The notes under the pieces: generated by a model
Databases searched by the model: none
What the model saw: the letters and a program-made list of their open reading frames with translations, nothing else
Told to the model about the DNA's origin: nothing
Assembly (NCBI GenBank): GCA_036376135.1
Contig: DASVAW010000146.1
Location: 1 to 39,176, forward strand
Reading direction: 5' to 3'
Source of the DNA: Candidatus Polarisedimenticolaceae bacterium
GTDB lineage: Bacteria > Acidobacteriota > Polarisedimenticolia > Polarisedimenticolales > DASRJG01
DNA: 39,176 nucleotides
In this document: piece by piece, positions 29,260-32,153 of the stretch
How positions within the stretch are numbered: the stretch's first letter is position 1
Layout: the number at the start of each line of letters is the position of its first letter
Translations under genes and position numbers: made by a program

Positions 29260-29528
29260 GGACCGCCCTCGATCTCGCGCCACTCCCGGACCGTCCACGC
29301 GCACAGTCCTTCCTCGACCAGGGGGCTCGACCTCGCCAGCGCCTCCGCCTCGAGGAGGTCTTTCGCTTCGAAGATGTCCAGGAAGCCGTCGTCGTTCCGG
29401 AACGACCCGGCGACGCGAAGGCGCCCCTCCCGGCGCAGGGCGCGGAGGTGCTCCACGTGCCGCTCGATCGCGGGCGCGGCGTCCGCCGGCAGCGCCGTCA
29501 CCACGATCGTGCGCGCCCAGAGCGTCAT
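29256..29528 (-). CDS. YciI-like (YCII-related) protein
   Basis: A 90-residue ferredoxin-like alpha/beta protein of the YCII family. It starts ARTIVVTALPADAAPAIERHVEHLRALRREGRL, has GSFRNDDGFLDIFEA in the middle and LARSSPLVEEGLCAWTVREW at the end. YciI homologues bind small aromatic or dienelactone-like compounds, but their role is mostly unknown. It overlaps both neighbours: ATGA with the beta-CASP hydrolase upstream and GTGA with cstA downstream, so the three are translated as a unit. Confidence 0.85.
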   Translation of the reverse strand: MTLWARTIVVTALPADAAPAIERHVEHLRALRREGRLRVAGSFRNDDGFLDIFEAKDLLEAEALARSSPLVEEGLCAWTVREWREIEGGP

Positions 29529-30931
29529 TCGATCTCGACCCTGGAGGCGTAGTCGGGGCGATTCGCCCCGATCCCCCGCCGCTCCTTCAGCAGGTCCGCG
29601 AGGGCGTCGCGCGCATCCGGCTCGCCGTGCACGAGGTGCACGCGCGCGGGAGAGCGTTCGGCGCCGGCGAGCCAGCCGAGGATCTCCCCCCGGTCGGCGT
29701 GCGCGGACAAGCCGTCGATCGTCGCGACCCGGGCGCGGACGGGAACCGTGCGGCCGTGCATCCGGAGCTCCTTCACGCCGTCCTGCAGCGCCCGACCGCG
29801 GGTGCCCACGCCCTGGTACCCGACGAACAGCACCGTCGTGCGATGGTCGGGGAGCTTGAAGAACAGGTGGTGCAGGATGCGGCCGCCTTCCGCCATCCCC
29901 GAGGCCGAGATGATGATCGCGGGGTAGCGGATGTCGTTCAGGCGCTTGGAGTCCTCGACGGTGCTCGCGCACTTCACGCCGTTTTCCAGGCCGAGCGGGT
30001 CGGCGCCGTGCGAGTTGGCGCGGCGCATCTCGCCGTCGACCGCCTCGGGGTGGTCGAGCGTGATGCGCGTCGCCTCGATCGCCATCGGGCTGTCCATGTA
30101 GATCGGGACGTCGGTCGGGAGCCTCCCCTCGTGCCTGAGCTCGCGCAGAAGCCACAACAGGTGCTGCGTGCGTCCGACGGCGAACGACGGGATCAGGAGC
30201 GTTCCCCCCGCCTGGATCGTCTCCATCGCGACGCGGAGGAGCACGTCCTTCGGGTCCTCCTCGGGGTGATCCCGATTGCCGTACGTGCTTTCGAGCAGCA
30301 GGTGGTCGCACGCGGGGAGGGGCGAGGGGTCCGGGAGGATCGGCTGGCCGTTGCGGCCGAGGTCCCCCGAGAAGACGACCGTCCGGTCACCGCCGTCGCG
30401 CCCAGCCTTCTTGAGGACGACTTCGATGAAGGCGGCGCCGACGATGTGTCCGGCGGGAAGGAACCGGATCGTGACGGCGTCGTGCACCTGGAGCGGCCGG
30501 CTCCAGGGATGCGGGTCGAGCCGCTCGAGCGCGTCCCTCGCGTCGGCCTCGGTGTACAGCGGCAGCGCCGGCTTGTGTTTCGAGGCGCCGCGCCAGTTCA
30601 GGTACCGCGCGTCCTCTTCCTGCAGGTGCCCCGAGTCGGGGAGGATGATCCCGCACAGGTCGCGGGTCGCCGGGGTGCAGACGACGCGCCCTGCGTACCC
30701 GAACTTCAGCAGCCGCGGGAGCCACCCCGTGTGGTCGAGGTGGGCGTGCGTGAGAACGACGAGATCGAGCGTGCCGACGTCGAACGGCGGCTCCGCCCAG
30801 TTCCGGAGGCGCAGGTCCTTGAGCCCCTGGAACAGGCCGCAGTCCACGAGCATCCGGAACCCCCGGTGCTCGAGCAGGTACTTCGAACCGGTCACGGTGC
30901 CGGTCGCGCCGAAGAACGAGAGGGTTGCCAT
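29525..30931 (-). CDS. Metallo-beta-lactamase / beta-CASP family RNase-like hydrolase
   Basis: A 468-residue protein with the metallo-beta-lactamase zinc motif THAHLDHTGWLP (HxHxDH). The further His/Asp ligands lie in PAGHIVGAAF and FSGDLGRNGQP. The beta-CASP insert follows (LLLESTYGNRDHP, PSFAVGRTQHLLWLL, MDSPMAIEAT), then the C-terminal RMMBL-like block (ISASGMAEGGRILHHL, QDGVKELRMHGRTVPVRARV, GLSAHADRGEIL). This layout is that of CPSF73-like RNA nucleases of archaea and bacteria. The ATG at 30931 starts MATLSFFGATGTVTGSKY, the usual family beginning; an ATG nine bases earlier is also in frame. First gene of the operon with yciI-like and cstA, divergent from the selenoprotein gene. Confidence 0.93.
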   Translation of the reverse strand: MATLSFFGATGTVTGSKYLLEHRGFRMLVDCGLFQGLKDLRLRNWAEPPFDVGTLDLVVLTHAHLDHTGWLPRLLKFGYAGRVVCTPATRDLCGIILPDSGHLQEEDARYLNWRGASKHKPALPLYTEADARDALERLDPHPWSRPLQVHDAVTIRFLPAGHIVGAAFIEVVLKKAGRDGGDRTVVFSGDLGRNGQPILPDPSPLPACDHLLLESTYGNRDHPEEDPKDVLLRVAMETIQAGGTLLIPSFAVGRTQHLLWLLRELRHEGRLPTDVPIYMDSPMAIEATRITLDHPEAVDGEMRRANSHGADPLGLENGVKCASTVEDSKRLNDIRYPAIIISASGMAEGGRILHHLFFKLPDHRTTVLFVGYQGVGTRGRALQDGVKELRMHGRTVPVRARVATIDGLSAHADRGEILGWLAGAERSPARVHLVHGEPDARDALADLLKERRGIGANRPDYASRVEIE

Positions 30932-30990: not shown

Positions 30991-31018
30991 GCCCGCCTTT
31001 TCCATGGAGGATCCGCCG

Positions 31019-31240
31019 ATGCGCGTTCAGATCGAATACTGCACCTCCTGAGGGTATCTCCCCAAGGCCGCCGGTCTGGCGGCCGAGCTGAAGAAGAAGT
31101 TCGACGTCGACGCCGAGCTGGTCCCGTCCTCGGGAGGGGTTTTCGAGATCTCCGTGGACGGCGCCAAGGTGTTCTCGAAGAAGGAACTGGGTCGTTTCCC
31201 CGTCGAGGGCGAGGTCGACGAGATCTTCCGCGCCCGCTAG
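31019..31240 (+). CDS. SelW/Rdx-family selenoprotein with in-frame TGA (Sec11)
   Basis: Reading TGA at 31049-31051 as selenocysteine gives a complete 73-residue protein. It begins M-R-V-Q-I-E-Y-C8-T-S-U11-G-Y-L-P-K and continues LAAELKKKFDVDAELVPSSG, GVFEISVDGAKVFSKKELG and RFPVEGEVDEIFRAR before TAG. This is the thioredoxin-like Rdx (SelW/SelT/SelH) fold, with the C-x-x-U motif after the first strand and the GGVFEI...FSKK signature after it. GGAGGA seven bases before the ATG at 31019 fixes the start (an ATG at 31004 is less likely). A SECIS-type hairpin lies 15 bases past the TGA. Proline dehydrogenase follows after seven bases. A thiol/selenol redox role is expected. Confidence 0.92.
31066..31084 (+). 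promoter_or_regulatory. Bacterial SECIS-like hairpin
   Basis: GGCCGCC (31066-31072) and GGCGGCC (31078-31084) pair perfectly over 7 bp around the loop GGTCT. The loop begins 22 bases after the TGA, inside the coding sequence, where bacterial SECIS elements lie. As I recall, the E. coli fdhF SECIS apical loop also contains GGUCU, the part contacted by SelB. The bulged U seen in the fdhF stem is not present here. Confidence 0.8.
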
Positions 31241-31247
31241 GGATTCC

Positions 31248-32153
31248 ATGAGCCTGCTCGATCGCGCGGTCGTCCACGGTCTGCCGTTCGTCCCCAAGCC
31301 GATCGTCGGCATGTTCTCGAAGCGGTACATCGCGGGGCCGCGGATGCAGGACGCCTTCCGCGTCGCCCGGGAGCTCGAGGGCGAGGGGGCGATGTCGACG
31401 ATCGACATCCTCGGCGAGTTCATCAAGAACCTCGACGAAGGGGATGCCAACGCCGACCAGTACATCGACCTCGTCCGTCGCATCGCCGGCGAGCGCTTCG
31501 CGGACGTCAACGTCTCGGTGAAGCTGACCGCGCTCGGCCTCACCCTCGACAAGGCGCGATGCCTCGCGAACATGCGCCGGCTGATGGCGGTGGCCCGGGA
31601 GGCGGGGTTGTTCGTCCGGATCGACATGGAAGACTCGCCGTGGACCGACGTCACCTGCGAGATCTACCGGACGTTGCGCTCCGAGTTCCCGGGGAAGGTC
31701 GGCGTGGCGATCCAGTCGCGCCTGCGGCGGACGATGGACGACGTCGAGTCGCTCACCGCCGAGCCCGCGAACTTCAGGCTGTGCAAGGGAATCTACCTCG
31801 AGCCGCGCCCGATCGCGTGGACCGACCCGGAGCTGATCCGGCGGAACTTCACGCTCGCCCTCGAGCGGATGCTCGAGCGCGGGGCCTACGTCGGGATCGC
31901 CACCCACGACGAGCAGCTGGTGTGGGAAGCGCTGCGCCTGGTGCGCCGCTTCGGCCTCACCCGCGAGAGGTACGAGTTCCAGATGCTGCTCGGGGTGGAC
32001 GAGGAGCTGCGGCGGATCCTGCTCGGGGCCGGGCACCGTCTGCGCGTGTACGTCCCTTACGGCGAGCGCTGGTACGCGTATTCGGTGCGGCGGCTGCGCG
32101 AGAACCCGCAGATCGCCAAACACGCGCTGCGGGCGATCCTCAAGGGAGCCTGA
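31248..32153 (+). CDS. Proline dehydrogenase (stand-alone)
   Basis: A 301-residue monofunctional proline dehydrogenase (PRODH), oxidising proline to pyrroline-5-carboxylate with FAD. Key blocks are VNVSVKLTALGL, FVRIDMEDSPWTD, VGVAIQSRLRRTMDD, FRLCKGIYLEP, YVGIATHDEQLVWEAL, FEFQ-like YEFQMLLGV and the substrate-binding YVPYGERWYAYSVRRLRENP (the Y..RR motif). It belongs to the short bacterial type of about 300 residues rather than the PutA fusion; no P5C dehydrogenase gene is next to it. It starts seven bases after the selenoprotein stop, so the two are co-transcribed. Its last 14 bases overlap the convergent DUF2231 gene. Confidence 0.93.
   Translation: MSLLDRAVVHGLPFVPKPIVGMFSKRYIAGPRMQDAFRVARELEGEGAMSTIDILGEFIKNLDEGDANADQYIDLVRRIAGERFADVNVSVKLTALGLTLDKARCLANMRRLMAVAREAGLFVRIDMEDSPWTDVTCEIYRTLRSEFPGKVGVAIQSRLRRTMDDVESLTAEPANFRLCKGIYLEPRPIAWTDPELIRRNFTLALERMLERGAYVGIATHDEQLVWEALRLVRRFGLTRERYEFQMLLGVDEELRRILLGAGHRLRVYVPYGERWYAYSVRRLRENPQIAKHALRAILKGA

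Follow-up and report, generated by a model that had tools for sequence, protein, structure and literature searches.

A predicted SelW-like selenoprotein gene with an internal SECIS-like hairpin precedes a proline dehydrogenase gene in an acidobacterial order

Results

A SelW-like gene with an in-frame UGA codon. We analyzed a stretch of 39,176 nucleotides from Candidatus Polarisedimenticolaceae bacterium (contig DASVAW010000146.1), called the window below. The locus of interest comprises the following features.

29525-30931, minus strand: beta-CASP metallo-hydrolase gene, divergent, upstream of the SelW-like gene
31006-31011, plus strand: Shine-Dalgarno sequence GGAGGA
31019-31240, plus strand: predicted SelW-like (Rdx family) selenoprotein gene, 73 residues, with Sec at residue 11 in C8-T-S-U11
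31049-31051, plus strand: UGA codon predicted to be read as selenocysteine
31066-31084, plus strand: putative bacterial SECIS (bSECIS) hairpin GGCCGCC-GGUCU-GGCGGCC, inside the coding sequence, with covariation in 23 sequences
31248-32153, plus strand: proline dehydrogenase gene (Pro_dh; PF01619, E 8.9e-29), 7 nt after the selenoprotein stop codon
32586-33476, minus strand: DnaJ-like gene, after the proline dehydrogenase gene

The SelW-like gene starts at an ATG (31019) separated by a 7-nt spacer from GGAGGA. Its codon 11 is TGA, and from there the frame remains open for 62 sense codons up to a TAG (31238-31240), all as described in an earlier, sequence-only reading of this DNA. With Sec at the UGA, the translation is MRVQIEYCTSUGYLPKAAGLAAELKKKFDVDAELVPSSGGVFEISVDGAKVFSKKELGRFPVEGEVDEIFRAR. 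Since 62 consecutive codons stay open by chance with a probability of about 33% at 71% GC, the open frame is weak evidence by itself; homology and comparison are therefore needed, and it is homology that carries the case for the gene. In profile searches the protein scored 73.4 bits (E 1.7e-20) with the Pfam Rdx family PF10262, 98.4 bits with NCBIfam NF041051 (SelT/SelW/SelH family (seleno)protein) and 65.9 bits with TIGR02174, the respective cut-offs being 22.6, 88 and 34.2 bits, which bears out the Rdx-family signatures noticed past the TGA in the sequence-only reading. Its solved relatives are named SelT/SelW/SelH or selenoprotein W, 2npb among them, and the in-frame UGA of the C-x-x-U motif occupies the position of a Cys in homologues.

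Conservation of the TGA codon. We surveyed 60 related genomes, including that of the window. An Rdx match was found in 37, and 30 of these, own genome counted, carry an in-frame TGA, which is the U of C-x-x-U in every gene whose start was read residue by residue. Because 30 Rdx genomes share it, the TGA cannot be put down to a TGC misread in a single assembly. The seven Rdx genomes without TGA are confined to one family, f8. Six of them have another subfamily, CTQCRWLLRAAW, and in the seventh the match is short and partial. Cys homologues at position 11, suggested earlier as a check, were thus found in the aligned column of this separate CxxC subfamily. In the tree, a single branch with 100/100 support separates the 24 Sec rows from the 6 Cys rows. 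Downstream of the TGA, dN (0.23 to 0.41) was lower than dS (0.54 to 1.67) against each relative compared, indicating that these codons are under purifying selection. A small local oddity is that GGG follows the UGA in this gene, where the other Sec orthologues aligned have AAY. A search for phage homologues found none.

Six relatives also contain a further Rdx-type gene, more divergent in sequence, that has CxxU and an in-frame TGA (loci L060 to L065, in G018, G029, G041, G006, G004 and G008), exemplified by MQPVTIRYCEQUGFRPRAARVAALL. The four examples tested fall below the NF041051 cut-off, and in several of the six genes a GCGAGU(C/U)U-type hairpin follows the TGA. The genes possibly form a separate SelW-like subfamily. 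By eye, a TusA/SirA-like frame comes next at L060.

A covarying hairpin downstream of the UGA. The hairpin at 31066-31084 has seven pairs and lies just downstream of the UGA, spanning 15 to 33 nt after it, with a G in the apical loop. Across 23 sequences, 91% of cells are paired and five of the seven pairs show changes on both sides; the closing loop pair switches from C-G to G-C in eight sequences. The covariation score was 0.322, versus 0.02 to 0.07 when the hairpin was slid. The loop reads GGUCU or AGUCU in most sequences, and GGUCU in the window. The evidence for the hairpin is this covariation, because the single-sequence folding energy (z -1.88) is not significant enough alone. An Rfam search of the window gave no match, so no curated RNA family covers the element, whose features are as expected for a bacterial SECIS. 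The hairpin reported previously just past the TGA is in fact one of two: that at 31066-31084 is conserved, whereas folding of relatives showed no counterpart of a smaller one immediately after the TGA (31049-31064).

Sec-decoding machinery. The same genome encodes SelA (507 bits), SelB (310.5 bits) and SelD (370 bits), all over cut-off, and a tRNA-Sec above the Rfam gathering score, which ARAGORN also reports as tRNA-SeC with anticodon TCA. All four components whose absence would have spoken against the sequence-only reading are therefore present. Across the class, selA was found in 39 of 41 genomes and a tRNA-Sec match in 38 of 41. Among draft assemblies that carry the TGA gene, selA had no match in G018 and G023, and tRNA-Sec had none in G004 and G020, the filters of the RNA search being strict.

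The selD gene (L048, G000:C135:1369-2307) has one in-frame TGA, and SelD is thus probably a selenoprotein too. A second SelB-like match (G000:C38:4641-5807; 198 bits, below cut-off) contains one in-frame TAG and has two tRNA-like matches near it on the same contig; it probably encodes a standard elongation factor, for instance Tu.

Linkage to proline dehydrogenase. Judging from their arrangement in the window, the SelW-like and proline dehydrogenase genes are likely co-transcribed. Proline dehydrogenase is present in all 10 genomes of the order to which the window belongs, probably Polarisedimenticolales (Acidobacteriota), and in nine of them, representing three families, SelW lies directly upstream of it, often with a gap of 3 to 34 nt (the gap value for L029 is meaningless, as the stop search overran the true end). 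In G005, a single-contig assembly, proline dehydrogenase is encoded elsewhere and not at SelW, and its SelW groups with another family in the tree. Among 80 proline dehydrogenase loci from named genomes, SelW occurs only at that of Polarisedimenticola svalbardensis, classified by NCBI in Acidobacteriota, Polarisedimenticolia, Polarisedimenticolales. The beta-CASP and DnaJ neighbors are also kept in several genomes of the order, and the SelW-proline dehydrogenase pair may for that reason be simple synteny. Of the eight papers listed by a literature search for a link between SelW and proline dehydrogenase, none was relevant.

Discussion

From the sequence comparisons we infer that Sec is inserted at this UGA. 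The locus encodes a small cytoplasmic protein of thioredoxin-like fold, of the SelW/Rdx family, in which SelB and tRNA-Sec would decode codon 11 as selenocysteine under the direction of the bSECIS hairpin within the coding sequence. By analogy with the family, the C-x-x-U pair most likely has a redox function as a thiol/selenol center; it would form a selenenylsulfide and reduce a disulfide or peroxide of a partner, perhaps at the expense of glutathione or another thiol. Gene order suggests that SelW and the downstream proline dehydrogenase are probably expressed together in this order. We consider this account as a whole close to certain. It agrees with the earlier proposal of a SelW-like selenoprotein with Sec in C-x-x-U, which the family scores, the machinery, the conservation of the TGA and the hairpin covariation all support. 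No finding speaks against Sec coding.

A single base change would turn the TGA into a Cys codon, and Cys homologues exist in family f8, so that one might suspect that a Cys-type gene (TGC or TGT) had been misread in sequencing or had mutated recently, or that the gene is a pseudogene. However, the in-frame TGA recurs in 29 other genomes, the Cys forms make up a separate, fully supported clade, the coding part past the TGA is conserved and the hairpin covaries. The earlier judgment that mutation or decay was unlikely has thus held up, and the independent genomes exclude this explanation for practical purposes. Readthrough of the UGA as another residue, e.g., Trp by near-cognate suppression, is likewise very improbable in view of the complete Sec machinery in the genome, the bSECIS-like covariation and the Cys that homologues have in the aligned column, and nothing specific speaks for it.

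Granting that the gene encodes a selenoprotein, it might serve the adjacent proline dehydrogenase specifically, protecting this flavoenzyme or acting as its redox partner, rather than be a general redox protein. Their adjacency in nine of the 10 genomes and the short gaps speak for such a role, but the conserved beta-CASP and DnaJ neighbors perhaps indicate plain synteny, the link is absent in G005, proline dehydrogenase was not seen at other SelW loci in the class nor SelW at the more distant proline dehydrogenase loci retrieved, and SelW is widespread without proline dehydrogenase. We therefore regard a dedicated partnership as unlikely. That the two genes form a functional operon in this order, with the selenoprotein working for the flavoenzyme, is, in our estimation, distinctly improbable; if true, it would give a bacterial SelW-like selenoprotein its first specific role. 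The conserved pair represents a small testable lead on the role of the family.

The prokaryotic SelW-like selenoprotein family has been known since 2005 (Zhang and Gladyshev 2005, 2006). No other selenoprotein family was as abundant in the Sargasso Sea set, the study of which described its CXXU motif and bacterial SECIS elements (PMC1088965). Another study listed SelW-like proteins in bacteria and noted that Sec-using organisms had few Cys homologues; for Acidobacteria it listed four selenoproteins of three families (PMC1794560). A 2026 census includes SELENOW-like proteins (PF10262, CxxU) among its high-confidence predictions (PMC13188914). The surprise implied when the gene was first noticed is thus unwarranted: as the family was already described, the finding is correct but ordinary. 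The gene is a clean case of one truncated or missed by standard callers, although NF041051, a model from NCBI, would recognize its product, and SelW-like selenoproteins with a covarying bSECIS are common across this poorly studied acidobacterial class.

The predicted protein shares with prokaryotic SelW-like selenoproteins (PF10262, NF041051, TIGR02174) its length, the C-x-x-U after the first strand and a bSECIS with a G in the apical loop, and it passes the curated family scores. It differs in the Gly-Tyr that follows the UGA, Asn-Tyr in the other aligned orthologues, and in its position upstream of proline dehydrogenase in its order. Cys-type bacterial SelT/SelW/SelH proteins, such as PDB 2fa8 and 2obk, are alike in domain and in the position of the redox motif; the f8 members of the class, in contrast, have CxxC followed by R-W-L-L and a slightly longer middle part, and branch as a clade of their own in the tree. 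The CxxU motif and Rdx fold are also found in eukaryotic selenoprotein W (PDB 2npb), to which the window protein has a weak sequence match (E 2.6e-4). The SECIS of eukaryotic SelW is located in the 3′ UTR, whereas the hairpin of the window gene lies inside the coding sequence.
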